Notes under the pieces: model-generated | The model's database searches: none | Told to the model about the DNA's origin: nothing | The model's input: the letters and a program-made list of their open reading frames with translations, nothing else | Part shown: positions 9,081-16,972 of the stretch, piece after piece | Layout of the letters: each line of letters begins with the position of its first letter | How positions within the stretch are numbered: the first letter of the stretch is position 1 | Made by a program: the position numbers and the translations under genes | NCBI GenBank assembly: GCA_029262835.1 | Contig: JAJCYQ010000043.1 | Location: forward strand, 62,001 to 126,000 | Direction of reading: 5' to 3' | DNA length: 64,000 bases | Source: Bacteroidota bacterium | GTDB taxonomy: Bacteria; Bacteroidota; Rhodothermia; Rhodothermales; UBA10348

Positions 9081-9611
9081 ATGAAGATCCATGCACGAAC
9101 AGAGCGCCTGGTGCTCCGGGACTGGACGCCCGGGGACGTGGAGCCGTATGCCGCGCTGGTGGCCGATCCCGAGGTCATGCAGTACATCGGGAATGGCCAG
9201 ACGCGTTCACGGGAATATGCCGAAGATTTCGTAGCCGAGCAGATCCATCACCAGAAAACGCGCGGGTGGATGCGGTTCGTGGTGGAGGAGGCGGCCTCTG
9301 GCCTGTTCGCCGGGTTTTGCGGCCTGGATGACAAAACCGGCCGACTGGATTTTGGATGGCGCTATGCGAAAGCGTTCTGGGGCCGCGGATACGGCTTTGA
9401 AGCGGCGGCGGCGGCGCTCTACGTCGCCCAGAACGCATTCGGACTGACACGCATAACGTGCCAGTCCGTGCTGGACAACCCCGGATCCATTCGGATCATG
9501 CAGAAAATGGGGATGTCGGAAATCGGGACGTATGTGGCCTACGGCGAAACCGTCGTGGTGTATGGTTTTCCAGGGGAATGGCCCGACGGGTTCAGCGTCC
9601 CGCGCGAATGA
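9081..9611 (+). CDS. GNAT family N-acetyltransferase
   Basis: 176 aa from MKIHARTERLVLRDW at 9081. The opening TERLxLRxW and the segment DFGWRYAKAFWGRGYGFEAAAAALYVAQNAFGL, ending in CQSVLDNPGSIRIMQKMGM, are typical of RimJ/RimL-like GNAT enzymes. A longer frame from 9009 would overlap the divergent glnS start. Substrate unknown; related enzymes acetylate ribosomal protein N-termini or small amines. Its stop overlaps the convergent DUF4097 gene by 20 bases. Confidence 0.88.
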   Translation: MKIHARTERLVLRDWTPGDVEPYAALVADPEVMQYIGNGQTRSREYAEDFVAEQIHHQKTRGWMRFVVEEAASGLFAGFCGLDDKTGRLDFGWRYAKAFWGRGYGFEAAAAALYVAQNAFGLTRITCQSVLDNPGSIRIMQKMGMSEIGTYVAYGETVVVYGFPGEWPDGFSVPRE

Positions 9612-10710
9612 CAACCTTGCCGTCGTAGGTCTTGATTCGGATCCGGTTGGCGCCATCTCCGGTGGTACCCGTCGCGTGCACGCGGCCACCGCCCCGCCAC
9701 CTGTTGTCCTTCGCATCGACATTGATATTCAGGTCGAAGTCGGACTCGATCCGGTACTCATCGTCATCGTCGTCGAGCACGACTTCGATGTCGAACGTCA
9801 TGGCCAGGCCTCTCGGGACCGTCAGCAGAATATCGCCGCCTTTCGACTCGATATCGACGTGACGGTCACCGGACGTACCGCCCACCATGTGTGCTTCCAC
9901 GTCGCCTCCCATGGTCTCCAGTTCTATCCAACCGTCCACCTCCCGAACCGTGATGTCTCCGCCCATGGTTCCTGCGCGCACGAATTCGGCGGCTTTGTTG
10001 ATGGCGATATCGCCTCCCATGGTTTCGACATCCGCACCATAAAGCGCTTCATCGATCTCGATGTCTCCGCCCATGGTTTCCACTTTGACCGTTTCTCCCT
10101 TGCCTTGGCCTGAGTTGGGCGAGCGCACATTGTTGTAGGAGACGTCGCCTCCCATGGTCGTTCCGTTCACGGTCCCAGTGACGTTACGCAGGTCCACGTC
10201 GCCTCCCATGGTCGAGACTTTGCCATCGACTTCCGAGTCGGTGAGTGTGACGTCTCCTCCCATCGTCGACATCTGTACGATTCCCGACAGGCTCGATAGT
10301 TCAAGGTCACCCCCCATGCTGGAGCCTTCCAGACGTCCACTGACGCCATTGACCACCAGGTCGCCACCCATGGTCTCAACATCAAGATCAAATGTCCGAG
10401 GGACGTGAACCACAACGTGGACGTCCGACGAGGAGCGACCGCGCCGCGACCGGTACTCGGAACGGACGGCTACGCCGCGACTCGTTTCGCTGACCTGGAA
10501 GTCGATGTCGTCGGCATCGCGACCGTCGATTTCTGCTACGACGTGGACTTCGCCGCGGTCCCATCCTCGGATCTCGATATCACCGCCGGTCTCGATGTTC
10601 ATGGTGAGCAGGCCGCCTGCTTTCGCGGCGATGGTCCGATCCACGTTCTGGGAACGGGCTGGTGCGGCAAAAACGCCGAGTGCCAGAAGGAGAAAAAGAA
10701 GTTTTTTCAT
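9592..10710 (-). CDS. Exported DUF4097 protein with tandem MGGD repeats
   Basis: 372 aa from MKKLLFLLLALGVFAAPARSQN, a clear Sec signal peptide. The mature protein is almost entirely a repeated strand-turn unit of about 15-25 residues centred on TMGGD (nine MGGD copies and one KGGD), preceded by TGGDIEIRGWDRGEV. The Pfam DUF4097 family has this 'adhesin-like' repetitive beta architecture, and a beta-solenoid is the likely fold. No catalytic motif is seen. It is the last gene of the minus-strand set that begins with the HlyD-like adaptor, so an envelope role linked to that exporter is inferred. An in-frame upstream start at 10794 would remove the signal peptide from the N-terminus and was rejected. 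Confidence 0.87.
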   Translation of the reverse strand: MKKLLFLLLALGVFAAPARSQNVDRTIAAKAGGLLTMNIETGGDIEIRGWDRGEVHVVAEIDGRDADDIDFQVSETSRGVAVRSEYRSRRGRSSSDVHVVVHVPRTFDLDVETMGGDLVVNGVSGRLEGSSMGGDLELSSLSGIVQMSTMGGDVTLTDSEVDGKVSTMGGDVDLRNVTGTVNGTTMGGDVSYNNVRSPNSGQGKGETVKVETMGGDIEIDEALYGADVETMGGDIAINKAAEFVRAGTMGGDITVREVDGWIELETMGGDVEAHMVGGTSGDRHVDIESKGGDILLTVPRGLAMTFDIEVVLDDDDDEYRIESDFDLNINVDAKDNRWRGGGRVHATGTTGDGANRIRIKTYDGKVVIRAGR

Positions 10711-10801
10711 GTCTGCAGGCCGTAATTGGTAGTTGTTGGTAACTGTGCCGCTTGGACATCGCGCGCGCACAAATGGTTTGCAGGGCCCGCACAAAACGTG
10801 G

Positions 10802-11620
10802 TCAGTTGGCGCTTTCCTGTTCTACAGAGAAGCGGACGTCGTCGCGGCCGAAGTTGCCCCGTGCGGCATCGGCTGCAATGACTTCCAGCCGGTAGCGTCC
10901 GGATGGTACGCCCCTCAGTGATCCCGAATACATGTTGCGCTCTCCGGCGAAGTCGAGTATTGTTTCGCCCAGCAGCACGTCGTTCCCGTAGAGCCGAGCC
11001 CGTATCGTGAGCCGGTTGCTGTCCCACATTCCGCTCGGCTCCGTGGGGCACCCACAGAGCATGGTAACACTGGCCTTTACAGCAATATCTGCACCTTCTG
11101 CCTGCCCCTGTTCGGCTCGTGGGGAGAGGACGCGGACCGTGAAGCCGTTCAGTTCAAGAATGATTCCCTCACCTTCCACATGAAAGCCTGGTACAAGCAG
11201 CATGCGGCGGCTGGCCTGCACAAGGTGGCCGGGATCTCCGAGTGGGCCGTACGCTGTGATGTCCACGAGCGTCGGTTGCTCGAGCGCCAGTTCCGCGCGG
11301 AATGCGGCAGCGCCGGGCGTGTCATACATGGTCTGACCGCGCTCGCGGGGTCGTGCCATGATGGCTTCGGTATCGCCCGTCGAGCCCTTCTGCAGGCCGT
11401 CGGCAAGGACGTGCCCATCTGACACACGGGAAATCACGACGCGCACGCCGCCCACGCCATCTCCGATCAGTTTGGCATCATGGCTGACAACGCGTACGGT
11501 TACGCGTGTGGGGTCGGTCTGGATCTCGGCCAGTGCCAGCGTCGGGGGCGTGTATACAAGGAAAGCGCTGAAGACGAGAATCTGCAGCGCTTTCCGGAAG
11601 AGGGGTCGATATGGTATCAT
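10802..11620 (-). CDS. Exported protein of unknown function in exporter operon
   Basis: 272 aa from MIPYRPLFRKALQILVF at 11620; a hydrophobic helix follows and TLALAEI is a plausible signal-peptidase site. The mature part looks beta-rich, with TRVTVRVVSHDAKLIGDGVGGVRVVIS near residues 40-65 and MYSGSLRGVPSGRYRLEVIAAD near residues 230-255, patterns seen in Ig/carboxypeptidase-regulatory-like sandwiches. It lies 14 bases downstream of the 86-aa gene and 92 bases upstream of the DUF4097 gene, all on one strand. I do not recognise the family. It may be a periplasmic accessory or substrate of the linked exporter. Confidence 0.72.
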   Translation of the reverse strand: MIPYRPLFRKALQILVFSAFLVYTPPTLALAEIQTDPTRVTVRVVSHDAKLIGDGVGGVRVVISRVSDGHVLADGLQKGSTGDTEAIMARPRERGQTMYDTPGAAAFRAELALEQPTLVDITAYGPLGDPGHLVQASRRMLLVPGFHVEGEGIILELNGFTVRVLSPRAEQGQAEGADIAVKASVTMLCGCPTEPSGMWDSNRLTIRARLYGNDVLLGETILDFAGERNMYSGSLRGVPSGRYRLEVIAADAARGNFGRDDVRFSVEQESAN

Positions 11621-11634
11621 GGCTGGGCCTGTGG

Positions 11635-11895
11635 CTACGCGCGTGCGCGCTGTCGGAACATGACGGGAACGACGTCCCCGTCTGGGATGCCGATCTGCAC
11701 CAGCTCCCACGACGTGTCATAGTTGTTTATGATGGACCGCAGGGAGGCAATCTTCTGATCAAGATCCACGTCCTGTGGCCAGTTGACAGGTTCAACCCGA
11801 TAGTTCGACAGTCGTTTCTGCCCGTCGAGCGTTACGGCCACTTCGACCGTTTCATGGTGCTTCAGTGACGGAATGTGGACACAGATCTCTTTCAT
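11635..11895 (-). CDS. Small conserved-looking 86-aa protein in exporter operon
   Basis: MKEICVHIPSLKHHETVEVA followed by YRVEPVNWP, IASLRSIINNYD and SWELVQIGIPDGDVVPVMFRQ. The mixed beta/alpha pattern without low complexity, the tight spacing (20 bases after the ABC ATPase stop and 14 bases before the next start) and the shared strand support a real gene. There is no signal peptide, so it is probably cytoplasmic. No known domain was recognised. It could be a regulator or adaptor for the ABC ATPase. Confidence 0.7.
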   Translation of the reverse strand: MKEICVHIPSLKHHETVEVAVTLDGQKRLSNYRVEPVNWPQDVDLDQKIASLRSIINNYDTSWELVQIGIPDGDVVPVMFRQRARA

Positions 11896-11915: not shown

Positions 11916-12617
11916 TCAGGCTCCCTGGTGAATGTAGTGGCTCTGGATGAAGTTTTCCGTTACGACATGCCCGTCGAACAGGTGGATGACCCGCTGGCTG
12001 TACTCGGCATCGGCCGGTGAGTGCGTCACCATGGCGATGGTGGTACCCGCCTCGTTCAAAGAGGTAAGCAAATTCATTACCTCTTCGCCGTGCGTAGAGT
12101 CAAGGTTACCTGTGGGTTCGTCCGCCAGGATCAGTTTGGGCCCGGCTACGACGGCGCGGGCGATGGCCACGCGCTGCTGCTGACCACCCGAAAGCTGCTG
12201 CGGGAAATGGCCCTGGCGGTGGGTAATCTGAACGGAATCGAGGGCGGCCGTGACGCGTTCCTTTCGCTCGTCTGACGGCATGCCGAGGTAAAGGAGCGGC
12301 AACTCCACGTTCTCCTGGACCGTCAACTCATCGATCAGGTTGAAGCTCTGGAACACGAAGCCGATGTTGCCTTTGCGAAGCTGGGCCCGCTGCCGCTCGG
12401 AGAGATTGGAAATCTCTGTATCCAGAAACCAGTATTCGCCACTCGTGGGGTTGTCGAGCAGTCCCATGATGTTGAGGAGCGTCGACTTGCCGCAGCCCGA
12501 CGGGCCCATGATGGAGACGAATTCTCCCTCCTTGATTTCCAGGTTGACGTTGCTCAGGGCGGTCGTTTCGACGTCCTCGGTGATATAGGCCTTTTTCAGG
12601 TTCTTGGTCTTGATCAT
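11916..12617 (-). CDS. ABC transporter ATP-binding protein, MacB/LolD type
   Basis: 233 aa with Walker A GPSGCGKST, Q-loop FVFQSFNLIDELTVQENVELPLLY, signature LSGGQQQRVAIARAVV, Walker B KLILADEPTGNLDS and H-loop THSP. All catalytic positions are intact, unlike the variant after the signature in the ATPase at 4686. It follows the HlyD-like adaptor by 8 bases. ATPases of this class normally power FtsX/MacB permeases in tripartite exporters, but none is in this operon; a FtsX-type permease lacking its own ATPase is encoded at 46346. Confidence 0.94.
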   Translation of the reverse strand: MIKTKNLKKAYITEDVETTALSNVNLEIKEGEFVSIMGPSGCGKSTLLNIMGLLDNPTSGEYWFLDTEISNLSERQRAQLRKGNIGFVFQSFNLIDELTVQENVELPLLYLGMPSDERKERVTAALDSVQITHRQGHFPQQLSGGQQQRVAIARAVVAGPKLILADEPTGNLDSTHGEEVMNLLTSLNEAGTTIAMVTHSPADAEYSQRVIHLFDGHVVTENFIQSHYIHQGA

Positions 12618-12625
12618 GGTTCGTC

Positions 12626-13984
12626 CTATTTGAGAATGAGGCGGTCGGCCTCGTTGAAGGTTTCATACGAGGAGGTGATGACGCGTTGTCCGGGCTCGAG
12701 ACCCTCGACGACTTCGTACACCTCCAGATTCTTACGGCTGAGACGGATGGGCTGCTTGACAGCCACATCGCCCGACTCATCGAGCAGATAAATCCAGTTT
12801 CCCCCGGTGGACTGGAAGAAGCCGCCGAGCGGGACCACGATGGCATCGGTCGGATCGCTCATGGCCAGGCGGGCACGCACGGTCTGGCCGCGCCGTATGC
12901 CCTCGGGAGAGCCGCCCACAAAATCGAGGTCGACCTCAAAACGGCCCTGCCGGACTTCCGGGTACACGCGCCTAACTTCCATGGTGTACTCCTGACCGGC
13001 AATGGGTAGTGTGACAGCGGTCTGCCCGGGGTGTACACGGCTTATGTGGAATTCGTCGACCTGGGCGCGCACCATGACGCCATCGAGCAGATCGAGCTGT
13101 CCGAACCGGTAGCCACTGTTGACGATTTCTCCGAGCTCTGCGTTCAGCTGGGAGAGGCGTCCGGCGACGGGCGCCCGAATGGTCAGGTTTTCGAGCCGCT
13201 CATTGATAACCTGAAAATTGCGGTCCATCCGGTCGACCGACGCGGCCATCTGTTCGAGCTGTTGCGCCTGGCGAAGTGAATCGGTGGCATAGGAACGGAT
13301 GGTCAGATCCCGCCGGCGTTGCTGGTAATCGAATTCGTCCTTGATGCGGAAATATTCCTGCTCTGAGATGAGCTGCTTGGCATAGAGTTCTTCGGCCCGG
13401 TCGAACTCCCGGCTGAGTCTCAGGATGTTGTACTCCATGTCGACCAGCTGCTGCCGCGTACTCAGGTTGCTCTGCTCGACCTGGAATCGGGTCTGCTCGA
13501 GGCGGTTGATCTGTTCAATGCGTTGTGCTTCCGTATTGAGGAGGCTCAGCTGGAGTGAGCTGTTCGAGAGGCGAAGAATCGGATCGCCTTCCTCCAGGAT
13601 GGCCCCTTCCTGCACGAAGATTTCCTCGACGCGCCCGCCCTCGACCGCATCGAGAAAAAACCAGTTCTTGGGCAGCACGTTGCCGGTCACCGGAATGTTT
13701 TCCTGGAAAGGGGCAAATTCCACGTCGCTGACGGTGACCCTCTCGGCATCCACATTCAGGCTGCGCCCGCCACCCGTCGAGGAAATACCCCAGGCAATGA
13801 GCGCCACGAAGAGTACGCCGCCAGCGGCATAGACAATGCGCTGTCGCGTCCAGAACCGTTTGGCGATTTTGCGGTCCATGCCCTGGCCGCCGCCCATGCT
13901 GCCCTTGGAGGAGCCAGACGGTCCCAGGATTTTGGCGACGTCATTCGACGTGCGGGCCGGATTTTTTTTGGTATCAGGATTCAT
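12626..13984 (-). CDS. HlyD/MacA-like periplasmic adaptor
   Basis: 452 aa from ATG 13984. One transmembrane segment (IVYAAGGVLFVALIAWGI, about residues 50-67) is followed by a lipoyl-like half (VEEIFVQEGAILEEGDPILRLSN), a long coiled coil with many Gln/Arg/Glu (about residues 135-240), the second lipoyl half (ENLTIRAPVAGRLSQLNAELGEIV) and a beta-barrel ending in VVEGLEPGQRVITSSYETF. This is the adaptor architecture of MacA-type exporters. Internal ATG codons, including one at MDRKIAKRF (13879), are plausible starts, and one would fit the promoter position at 13998-14013 better. First gene of the operon. Confidence 0.92.
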   Translation of the reverse strand: MNPDTKKNPARTSNDVAKILGPSGSSKGSMGGGQGMDRKIAKRFWTRQRIVYAAGGVLFVALIAWGISSTGGGRSLNVDAERVTVSDVEFAPFQENIPVTGNVLPKNWFFLDAVEGGRVEEIFVQEGAILEEGDPILRLSNSSLQLSLLNTEAQRIEQINRLEQTRFQVEQSNLSTRQQLVDMEYNILRLSREFDRAEELYAKQLISEQEYFRIKDEFDYQQRRRDLTIRSYATDSLRQAQQLEQMAASVDRMDRNFQVINERLENLTIRAPVAGRLSQLNAELGEIVNSGYRFGQLDLLDGVMVRAQVDEFHISRVHPGQTAVTLPIAGQEYTMEVRRVYPEVRQGRFEVDLDFVGGSPEGIRRGQTVRARLAMSDPTDAIVVPLGGFFQSTGGNWIYLLDESGDVAVKQPIRLSRKNLEVYEVVEGLEPGQRVITSSYETFNEADRLILK

Positions 13985-13997
13985 GCTCGCCACGTGT

Positions 13998-14013
13998 TAC
14001 AAGGGTCGTGCCA
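13998..14013 (-). promoter_or_regulatory. Sigma-54-like -24/-12 promoter for the exporter operon
   Basis: Reading the minus strand, TGGCACG, four bases, then TTGTA. The -24 box is perfect, the 12-base spacing from GG to the downstream G is exact, and the only departure is TTGT rather than TTGC at -12. It directly precedes the adaptor gene and faces away from an NtrC-type activator gene. Transcription would start near 13987, giving almost no leader for the ATG at 13984 but about 108 bases for a start at 13879. Confidence 0.55.
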
Positions 14014-14055
14014 TACCTTCCGCTACCCGTGAGGGCAGGACGGGCGGTACATTCG

Positions 14056-14154
14056 TGTCCGATTCTGGAACACCATATGTCCGATTATGAACACCCTGGC
14101 GTGTCATGTGTCCGGTATTGGTACATTGTTGCAAACGGGTACGGTTATTGGACA
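14056..14154. promoter_or_regulatory. Four TGTCC-N6/7-G(N)ACA dyads, candidate enhancer sites
   Basis: Dyads at 14056-14072, 14078-14093, 14109-14125 and 14138-14154 (the last in inverse orientation). Half-sites are TGTCC and GAACA, GTACA or GGACA. Centre spacings are about 21.5, 31.5 and 29 bases, near whole helical turns. They lie roughly 75-160 bases upstream of the start expected from the -24/-12 element, where NtrC-type activators usually bind, and also upstream of the regulator gene itself. Confidence 0.5.
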
Positions 14155-14212
14155 TCGGGGCCGTCGGATTGGTTGGCCTCACTACACGAAAAACCTTTTT
14201 CATTGTTACAGT

Positions 14213-15616
14213 ATGCCCGAAAAACCTGATGCAACTCTGGGACGGATCCTGGTAGTGGATGACGATGTGGACGTGCTGCAGGCGGCGCGACTGCTGCTAC
14301 GCGAATACGCCGAGCATGTGCAGACCGTAAAGCGTCCCGAAGAGGTGCCGGCCATGCTCGCCGCCGGTGCGTTCGATTTGATCATGCTCGACATGAATTT
14401 TACCAGGGACGTATCGAGTGGGCGCGAGGGGTTCTACTGGCTGGATCGCATTCTGGAGGTGGATCCGGATGCTGTCGTGGTCATGATTACGGCGTTCGGC
14501 GATGTGGAGACCGCGGTCCAGGCCATCAAGGCGGGAGCTACCGACTTTGTGCTCAAGCCGTGGCAGAACGAAAAGCTCGTGGCAACGCTGTCAAGCGCCC
14601 GGAAACTACGGGCGGCGCGCAGTGAGGCTGAGACGCTGCGCAACCAGGCGCGCACGCTGTCGAGCGACATGGGCCAGCCATTCCGGGAATTCGTCGGACA
14701 CTCTGCACCCATGCGCCGCGTGTTCGAGCACATAGAAAAGGTGGCGCGTACCGACGCCAATGTACTCATACTTGGAGAGAACGGTACCGGCAAGGAACTC
14801 GTGGCGCGCGCCCTGCACAGCCGCTCGCCGCGCGCTGAGAATGTATTTGTGAGTGTGGACATGGGTGCCGTTTCGGAGACCCTGTTCGAGAGCGAACTCT
14901 TCGGCCACCGACGCGGGGCGTTTACGGACGCGCGGGAGGATCGGGTAGGTCGTTTTGAAGTGGCAAGTGGTGGAACACTTTTCCTCGATGAAATCGGTAA
15001 CCTGTCCTCCCCACTACAGGCCAAGCTGTTGACGGTACTCGAACAGCGCCACGTGACGCGGCTCGGGGAGAACAGGCCCATTCCCATCGACGTGCGCCTT
15101 ATCTGCGCAACGAACCGGCCCATTGGCGATATGGTCACAGCAGGCACGTTCCGGCAGGACCTGCTGTACCGGATCAATACGGTGGAAATCCACCTGCCGC
15201 CACTTCGGGATCGCCTTGAAGACATTGGCCCGCTCGCGGAGCACTTCCTGGGGCTGTTCCGGCGCAAATACAACCGGGACGTGACCGGTATTTCGAGAGA
15301 GGCCCTTGACCGGCTGCACCTGTACCACTGGCCAGGCAATGTGCGCGAACTGGAGCATATGGTGGAGCGGGCCATCATCATGACCGATGCCAACACGCTG
15401 CAGGCCAGCGATTTTTTCTTTGCCACCGGCCACGGGTCGCAGGGATTCGAGGGCGGCGCGGCCATGCCACTGGACTCTTTCAACCTGGAGGAAGTAGAAA
15501 AGGCGGTCATCCAGAAAGCTATTGACCGCCACGGTGGCAACATTTCCAAAGCAGCCACCGAGCTCGGACTGACCCGTGCATCGCTCTACAGGCGCATGGA
15601 AAAATACGGCTTGTAA
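14213..15616 (+). CDS. NtrC-type sigma-54-dependent response regulator
   Basis: 467 aa from MPEKPDATLGRILVVDDDVD at 14213; longer frames reach into the dyad region and lack family similarity. The receiver domain has DDD near the N-terminus, phospho-acceptor region DLIMLDMNF, then FVLKPW. The AAA+ domain has Walker A GENGTGKE, Walker B GGTLFLDEIG and the sigma-54 loop written GAFTDA instead of GAFTGA, a variant I recall from other Bacteroidota regulators. The C-terminus is a Fis-type helix-turn-helix, GGNISKAATELGLTRASLYR. Co-transcribed with the kinase 6 bases downstream and divergent from the exporter operon, which is its probable target. Confidence 0.94.
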   Translation: MPEKPDATLGRILVVDDDVDVLQAARLLLREYAEHVQTVKRPEEVPAMLAAGAFDLIMLDMNFTRDVSSGREGFYWLDRILEVDPDAVVVMITAFGDVETAVQAIKAGATDFVLKPWQNEKLVATLSSARKLRAARSEAETLRNQARTLSSDMGQPFREFVGHSAPMRRVFEHIEKVARTDANVLILGENGTGKELVARALHSRSPRAENVFVSVDMGAVSETLFESELFGHRRGAFTDAREDRVGRFEVASGGTLFLDEIGNLSSPLQAKLLTVLEQRHVTRLGENRPIPIDVRLICATNRPIGDMVTAGTFRQDLLYRINTVEIHLPPLRDRLEDIGPLAEHFLGLFRRKYNRDVTGISREALDRLHLYHWPGNVRELEHMVERAIIMTDANTLQASDFFFATGHGSQGFEGGAAMPLDSFNLEEVEKAVIQKAIDRHGGNISKAATELGLTRASLYRRMEKYGL

Positions 15617-15622
15617 GCGCGC

Positions 15623-16972
15623 ATGCGGCACTTCCGGCTCCAGATAACGCTTCGCATTCTGCTCATGACGGCAACCCTGGTCGGCGTCGTGGTGCTCGTT
15701 GTATTGGGCACATCATTGCTGGGAGCGATTCTGTTGGTGGGTGCGGTGGTGGCCCAGGTCGTGTCGCTCATCCGGTATACCGACCGCACAAACCGGGAAG
15801 TGGCCCGTTTTCTGATGAGTGTCCGCTACTCCGACTTCTCACAGACCTTCTCCGGGTCAGGCCGGGGTCAGAGTTTTTCGGAACTTGCGCGTGCCATTGA
15901 CAGGGTCATGGACGACTTCCGCGAAGCGCGCGCGGGCACAGAGGAGCACTACCGCTACCTGCAGACCGTCATGCAGCACGTGGGTACGGGACTCATCACC
16001 TATACGGCGCGGGGCGACGTCGAGCTCATCAATGCGGCTGCAAAACGCCTCCTCCGCGTCGGCCACCTGAAGCATGTCAGTGGGCTGGCCTCCTTCAGCC
16101 CAGCCCTTGTCGACGTATTACAGAATATGGGTCCGGGCGGCAAGAGTATCGTGAAAGTCGTGCTTGGAGATGATCTGCTGGAGCTCGTCGTCTACGGCAC
16201 TACGTTTCGCATGAAGGGGGAGACGTACACGCTCGTATCCATACAGGATATACAGACGGAACTGGAGGAGAAGGAAATAGAGGCGTGGCAGAAGCTGACG
16301 CGCGTTTTGACGCACGAAATCATGAACTCCATCACGCCGATCTCGTCGCTGGCCGGCACGGTGCACGGCATGCTGCAGGCTGATCTGGCTTCGGGTCAGC
16401 AGGGCCTGCTTATGGGAGATGCGAAGCTCGCCGACATACGGGATGCCCTGGAGACCATTGAGCGGCGCAGCCACAGTCTGATGCGGTTCGTGGATGCCTA
16501 TCGGAGCCTGACCCGTCTTCCCCGTCCTGACATGACCATTTTCCAGACACGGGATTTGCTTGTTGATATGGAGCGCCTGTTCCGCGCGGAACTCTCCGGG
16601 CGCCATATCCGGCTGGTTACCACGTGCGAGCCGGCGACGCTTGACCTGACGGCCGACCGGGAGCAGGTCGAACAGGTCCTTATCAATCTGATCAGGAACA
16701 GCGTGCAGTCGCTCGCAGAGGTGGGTGGAGGAACGATCTGCGTGCGCGCCCGGCTCGGGGAGCGGGGGCGCCCCATTATCCAGGTCGAGGACGACGGGCC
16801 AGGCATTGAGCCCGAGGCGCTCGACAAGGTGTTCATTCCGTTTTTTACAACGCGCAAGGATGGCTCGGGCATTGGAATGAGCCTGGCTCGGCAGATCATG
16901 CGTCAGCACGGAGGTGTTATCGGCATCGGATCGACGCCAAACGAGCAGACAATTGTTACCTTGCGTTTTTGA
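15623..16972 (+). CDS. Membrane sensor histidine kinase, NtrB-like, partner of the regulator
   Basis: 449 aa. Two N-terminal hydrophobic helices (ILLMTATLVGVVVLVVLG and LLGAILLVGAVVAQVVSL, residues 10-50) leave almost no periplasmic loop, so sensing is likely in the membrane or cytoplasm. A HAMP-like/PAS region follows. The H box is RVLTHEIMNSITPISSLAG near residue 233, with N box VLINLIRNSVQSLAE, G1 VEDDGPGI and G2 GSGIGMSLARQIM. It is preceded closely by the sigma-54 regulator, so the two form a two-component system. Confidence 0.93.
   Translation: MRHFRLQITLRILLMTATLVGVVVLVVLGTSLLGAILLVGAVVAQVVSLIRYTDRTNREVARFLMSVRYSDFSQTFSGSGRGQSFSELARAIDRVMDDFREARAGTEEHYRYLQTVMQHVGTGLITYTARGDVELINAAAKRLLRVGHLKHVSGLASFSPALVDVLQNMGPGGKSIVKVVLGDDLLELVVYGTTFRMKGETYTLVSIQDIQTELEEKEIEAWQKLTRVLTHEIMNSITPISSLAGTVHGMLQADLASGQQGLLMGDAKLADIRDALETIERRSHSLMRFVDAYRSLTRLPRPDMTIFQTRDLLVDMERLFRAELSGRHIRLVTTCEPATLDLTADREQVEQVLINLIRNSVQSLAEVGGGTICVRARLGERGRPIIQVEDDGPGIEPEALDKVFIPFFTTRKDGSGIGMSLARQIMRQHGGVIGIGSTPNEQTIVTLRF

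Follow-up and report, generated by a model that had tools for sequence, protein, structure and literature searches.

A predicted shared enhancer with divergent sigma-54-type promoters between an NtrC-type regulator and an exporter adaptor-ATPase operon in Rhodothermia

In the NtrBC, ZraSR and GlrKR/QseEF circuits, a two-component pair includes an AAA+ sigma-54 activator with a Fis helix-turn-helix (HTH), tandem dyads lie upstream of a -24/-12 promoter and the regulator acts on its own expression. Upstream activator sites are dyads placed on one helix face, roughly 80-150 bp before the transcription start; those of the NifA type read TGT-N10-ACA. Autoregulation of ZraSR is described in PMC12316311 (2025), which also predicts sigma-54 control of ABC antimicrobial-peptide transporters (COG0577/COG1136) in Bacteroidia and gamma-Proteobacteria. 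The excerpted text of that paper names no cognate regulator or operator and mentions neither Rhodothermia nor HlyD.

Here we analysed a locus that, going by this excerpted text, shares its transporter class, its phylum and predicted sigma-54 promoters with the published set. Its predicted domain and site architecture places it with the NtrC-type enhancer circuits. It differs from them in its operator, TGTNCG-N4/5-CGNACA, in the activator loop, which is GAFTDA rather than GAFTGA, and in its target, a putative MacB-class exporter; the TGT...ACA half-sites resemble those of the NifA type. Our literature search found no published operator or regulator for this system. Beyond the excerpted part of PMC12316311, we propose an activator, its sites, their phasing and a dispersed set of permeases.

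The window, that is, the whole 64 kb stretch analysed (C43:62001-126000), comes from a 3.4 Mb genome in 103 contigs, and its nearest named relatives are Rhodothermia. Adaptor and ATPase genes lie on one side of a 228-base intergenic region and divergent regulator and kinase genes on the other, with the following features (window coordinates; dyad distances run from the dyad centre):
11916-12617, minus strand: ATP, a MacB/DarD-like ABC ATPase (profile models)
12626-13984, minus strand: ADP, a HlyD/DarC-like periplasmic adaptor (profile models)
13999-14013, minus strand: -24/-12 (sigma-54-type) promoter element facing the adaptor, TGGCACGACCCTTGT (from sequence; whole-genome pattern match at C43:75999-76013; conserved at 29 of 31 adaptor operons next to a regulator gene)
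14056-14072, no strand: dyad 1, the 17-mer TGTCCGATTCTGGAACA; upstream distance 50.5 bp to the adaptor-facing element, 72.5 bp to the one facing REG
14078-14093, no strand: dyad 2, the 16-mer TGTCCGATTATGAACA, matching the consensus seen across the phylum; distance 72 bp to the adaptor-facing element, 51 bp to the one facing REG
14109-14125, no strand: dyad 3, the 17-mer TGTCCGGTATTGGTACA; distance 103.5 bp to the adaptor-facing element, about 20 bp to the one facing REG
14137-14151, plus strand: second, weaker -24/-12-type element facing REG, GGGTACGGTTATTGG (10 of 18 related loci; dyads in phase)
14182-14209, minus strand: GTAACA-N-CGTGTAG, pointing at the adaptor, tentatively an ECF-type promoter-like element (persists in REG-less relatives)
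14213-15616, plus strand: REG, an NtrC-type response regulator (Pfam PF00072, PF00158 and PF02954)
15623-16972, plus strand: HK, the cognate histidine kinase, with two membrane helices (hydropathy; adjoins REG in relatives)

REG carries a receiver domain (PF00072), a sigma-54 AAA+ domain (PF00158) and a Fis HTH (PF02954), all over the Pfam cut-offs, and scores far under all NCBIfam equivalog cut-offs. The divergent gene had initially been annotated as an AAA+ activator with a GAFTDA loop, and REG indeed contains this loop; GAFTDA or GSFTDA, in place of the canonical GAFTGA, was found at 83 of 87 loci. By hydropathy, HK is hydrophobic for about 50 residues at its N-terminus and has almost no outside loop. 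Because this N-terminus resembles those of kinases that sense within the membrane, a signal from the cell envelope is the likeliest.

On the other side, adaptor and ATPase find their best matches in the DarC and DarD models of the DarBCD/MacAB-type tripartite exporters, at scores short of the NCBIfam equivalog cut-offs (187 of 450 bits for DarC and 279 of 375 bits for DarD). In contrast to DarBCD, the operon contains no permease gene, and no darobactin-like genes were seen. Downstream of the ATPase on the minus strand are a 302-aa protein without a Pfam or NCBIfam family match (10802-11710) and then a DUF4097/LiaG-like protein (9592-10794); a DUF4097/LiaG-like gene also follows the ATPase in L036.

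The -24/-12 element reported to face the adaptor gene is present as claimed, reading TGGCACGACCCTTGT from 14013 to 13999 on the minus strand. Relative to the consensus TGGCACG-N4-TTGC it has the -24 GG and the exact spacing, with GT at -12 (TTGT); two loci of the same genus (L004 and L005) have TTGC at this position. Two features count against a sigma-54 reading: the -12 elements of the window depart from consensus on both sides (TTGT towards the adaptor, TTGG towards REG), and the adaptor transcript, predicted to start at about 13987, would have just ~3 nt of leader ahead of the ATG at 13984. A sigma-54-dependent adaptor mRNA starting there would be nearly leaderless. A whole-genome scan with the -24/-12 pattern returned 18 sites, and phased dyads accompany only the one in the window. 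The sigma factor itself is encoded in the source genome (rpoN; PF04963 at C25, E 3.5e-56).

The initial annotation listed four dyads of the form TGTCC-N6/7-G(N)ACA. Three of them stand, and they are the only matches to this pattern in the whole 64 kb window, all within the intergenic region; Markov shuffles of that region (n=5000) gave a mean of 0.012 dyads and a maximum of 1. The fourth candidate, GGTACGGTTATTGGACA at about 14138-14154, breaks the pattern, with GTACC instead of G(N)ACA as its other half. Likewise, centre spacings of 21.5 and 31.5 bp were correctly given, but the 29 bp to the fourth site is out of helical phase. Two of the three dyads have a 5-base spacer against the usual 4, which counts against them. 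Single dyads were not enriched over control across the source genome; this genome-wide count was set aside, and only non-coding, promoter-linked sites were treated as informative.

A search upstream of homologous operons revealed that the dyads are conserved from Rhodothermia to Bacteroidales and Cyclobacteriaceae. REG-HK is divergent from ADP-ATP in Rhodothermia, Roseivirga, other Cytophagales, Bacteroidales and a few other phyla, so this cassette is old. Nearly all of the intergenic regions of relatives contain TGGCAY-N5-TTGN towards the adaptor, usually with one to four dyads, whose consensus across Rhodothermia and Bacteroidota is TGTNCG-N4(5)-CGNACA. In total, the upstream regions of REG at 95 loci hold 69 dyads compared with 1.2 expected. 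Dyad centres lie 50, 60, 71, 82, 94 and 104 bp from the start of the -24/-12 element, a ladder of ~10.7 bp (R = 0.85 at 10.5 bp after collapsing) that places all dyads on one helical face; those of the window, at 50.5, 72 and 103.5 bp, fall on it. The dyads thus occupy the usual positions of upstream activator sites, as had been proposed, both in the window and, by their phasing, in 22 loci. Such a ladder is what looping from one DNA face would require and would not be expected from chance similarity.

It is very improbable that these dyads bind another transcription factor while REG acts elsewhere. The source genome does encode several REG paralogues, at 35-39% identity, but the dyads and the -24/-12 element are kept with REG as the divergent neighbour across phyla and are absent where REG is gone. 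Moreover, the REG recognition helix, LGLTR-ASLYRR, is nearly invariant, conserved as strongly as the operator. The only clade in which a basic residue enters this helix (TRKS or SRRA replacing TRAS; L025, L027, L028, L030 and L407-L410) has the operator variant TGTGCG/CGCACA, a covariation of single origin and only suggestive.

Binding by REG, which we prefer, is consistent with what happened in relatives that lost the regulator, where the promoter element at the adaptor operon is lost with it. A -24/-12 element is present at 29 of 31 adaptor operons that have REG as their adjacent divergent neighbour and at 1 of 14 that do not (Fisher 1.9e-8, indicative in that the genomes are related). The sole exception is L091, where REG lies 2.3 kb off. 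L031 is a contig-edge case that should not be counted, and its omission leaves the conclusion unchanged. All 27 family genomes examined retain rpoN, so the missing part is the regulator and not the sigma factor. In one genome (G009; L313, 1-1350) the circuit is decaying: REG is a frameshifted remnant of the receiver domain, HK has been lost, GT replaces the -24 GG and one dyad remains, with the ECF-like element intact. In REG-less genomes the adaptor gene has as its neighbour a homologue of the window gene located after HK (partly judged by eye), which fits a deletion of REG-HK. With intact, decaying and lost states in one family, this series amounts to a natural experiment: it could show how a sigma-54 regulon comes apart in genomes that retain sigma-54 itself. 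The core proposal of the initial annotation, that a sigma-54 promoter, activator dyads and a divergent activator form one circuit, is supported by rpoN, by dyad conservation and by this co-loss.

Sigma-54 need not be the sole input, given the extra ECF-like element. Its pattern, GYAACA-N-CGTGWAG, is found upstream of the adaptor gene in both REG-bearing and REG-less genomes (the window and L006-L013), several REG-bearing loci among them. In REG-less genomes a nearly identical form, GCAACAA-N-ACGTGAAG, lies directly upstream of the adaptor gene. We consider it improbable that the element at 14182-14209 is the main promoter of the operon and that the sigma-54 elements play a secondary part or are vestigial. 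This reading would account for the element being kept in REG-bearing and REG-less genomes alike, for its being what remains at the adaptor in the latter and for its presence at two permeases of the REG-less genome G013 (L293 and L296). However, the sigma-54 elements are strictly phased wherever REG is adjacent, which argues that they are under selection, and whole-genome counts of the ECF-like pattern were not above control, so its promoter nature is unproven and we dropped the idea of an ECF-like regulon. In another genome that lost REG (G008; L018/L314), near-identical repeats, GCCGTGCAACRATTGCGG, follow one another upstream of the adaptor, and every copy is similar to the first block of the ECF-like element.

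The fourth site is not conserved as a dyad: L005, L017 and L023 lose the GGACA half and keep GGTAC-N6-TTG. At 10 of 18 Rhodothermia loci this position carries a GGYAY-N5-TTG motif pointing towards REG, compared with 0.24 in shuffles, with perfect versions in L045 (TGGTACCGTTGTTGC), L053 (CGGTACCCTTGTTGC) and L036 (TGGTACAACGTTTGC). Among Bacteroidetes and other loci, TGGYAY-N7-G faces REG in 29 of 77, compared with 0.78 in shuffles; the Bacteroidetes set fits the phase more loosely. On these grounds the fourth site is better read as the regulator's own putative -24/-12 element, with a predicted start near 14163, than as a dyad. The contrary reading, in which the elements drive the adaptor-ATPase operon alone, REG has an ordinary promoter independent of sigma-54 and the fourth site is a dyad that has degenerated, is unlikely but deserves some weight: the REG-side element GGGTACGGTTATTGG has GG at -12 (TTGG, not TTGC), and the pattern used is missing towards REG in 8 of the 18 related loci. 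It sits poorly with the excess over shuffles, with the perfect versions and with the Rhodothermia dyads being in phase with the fourth-site element. In the window, dyads 1 and 2 are in phase with this element, at 72.5 and 51 bp on the upstream side of 14137, so autoregulation of REG is likely on this sequence evidence. Dyad 3, just ~20 bp away, probably serves the adaptor side.

The operon had also been called an exporter operon. The predicted sigma-54 circuit is supported, but the operon has no permease of its own, and its likely partners are dispersed. In Bacteroidota and Rhodothermota a single genome encodes dozens of MacB/FtsX-type permeases; there are 29 such genes in the window's genome and 58 in a Roseivirga genome (G060), apparently scattered. 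A defined operator with a predicted activator would provide a way to assign such permeases to adaptor-ATPase pairs and to signals. We looked at 20 stretches of the source genome with strict dyad sites outside the locus. Nearly all of these sites are within long reading frames (the candidate L182 was rejected as a target, its dyad being inside a frame of 413 codons), and three immediately precede orphan MacB/FtsX-type permease genes:
C5 permease (upstream region at C5:36456): TGGCACACTTCTTGA, dyad 113 bp from the -24/-12 element
C57 permease (upstream region at C57:5274): CGGCACGGATGTTGC, dyads 82 and 61 bp from the -24/-12 element
C73 permease (upstream region at C73:32128): CGGCACAGTTGTTGC, dyad 93 bp from the -24/-12 element

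A separate listing of the 29 permeases found a dyad with a -24/-12 element at the same three and at no others. Two other REG-bearing genomes yielded four more marked permeases, at distances of 70, 70, 81 and 83 bp; additional to those four, L262 has the element AGGCACGGATGTTGC, 83 bp from its dyad. Across the three REG-bearing genomes the combination was found at 7 of 79 permeases, compared with 0 in shuffled sequence and 0 in the wrong orientation, and the distances hold the phase of the adaptor-operon set (p about 4e-4). In the REG-less genome G013 it was found at 0 of 23 permeases. L234, L262 and L276 are orthologous permeases that have kept the elements, L216 and L254 are likewise orthologues, and in L297, the REG-less orthologue of the first three, the elements are absent. 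These data argue for a regulon of one adaptor-ATPase pair and several dispersed permeases, the marked permeases being the predicted partners of this adaptor and ATPase; the parts of a tripartite exporter would then be an adaptor and an ATPase in the operon and three co-marked permeases elsewhere in the source genome.

Taken together, the region is very probably a shared enhancer serving two divergent sigma-54 promoters, with a REG-HK switch that also covers the dispersed permeases. From the elements, their conservation and phasing, their co-loss with REG and their presence at permeases, we infer binding by REG, its phosphorylation, looping, the signal and the physical assembly of the exporter, as follows. 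HK would sense stress, probably at the inner membrane, and phosphorylate REG, oligomers of which would occupy the three helically phased dyads. DNA looping would then bring the GAFTDA loop of REG into contact with RNA polymerase-sigma-54 at 13999-14013, where it would open the adaptor-ATPase promoter. Two of the three dyads may also act on the weaker element at 14137-14151, and REG-HK would thereby be positively autoregulated. At least three dispersed MacB/FtsX-type permeases have the same pairing of dyad and -24/-12 element in front of them, which would put the missing permeases under this switch; adaptor, ATPase and permeases would then be produced in concert and would probably come together in trans. 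We more tentatively entertain, at somewhat short of even confidence, a hub-and-spoke exporter, in which a permease-less adaptor-ATPase pair is common to scattered permeases under one membrane-sensing sigma-54 two-component switch, and lineages that lost this switch would have moved its parts to the ECF-like element.

The evidence for the putative dispersed-permease regulon comes from the window's family. In the Roseivirga genome, the combination of dyad and -24/-12 element was found at 0 of 58 permease genes. Upstream regions of L402 and other permeases in that genome have -24/-12 elements with other dyads (CGTCCGTCAGCGGACG and AGTTCGCTAGCGAATA), and for some of these permeases the divergent regulator seems to be another one; Roseivirga probably has parallel circuits run by paralogous activators.
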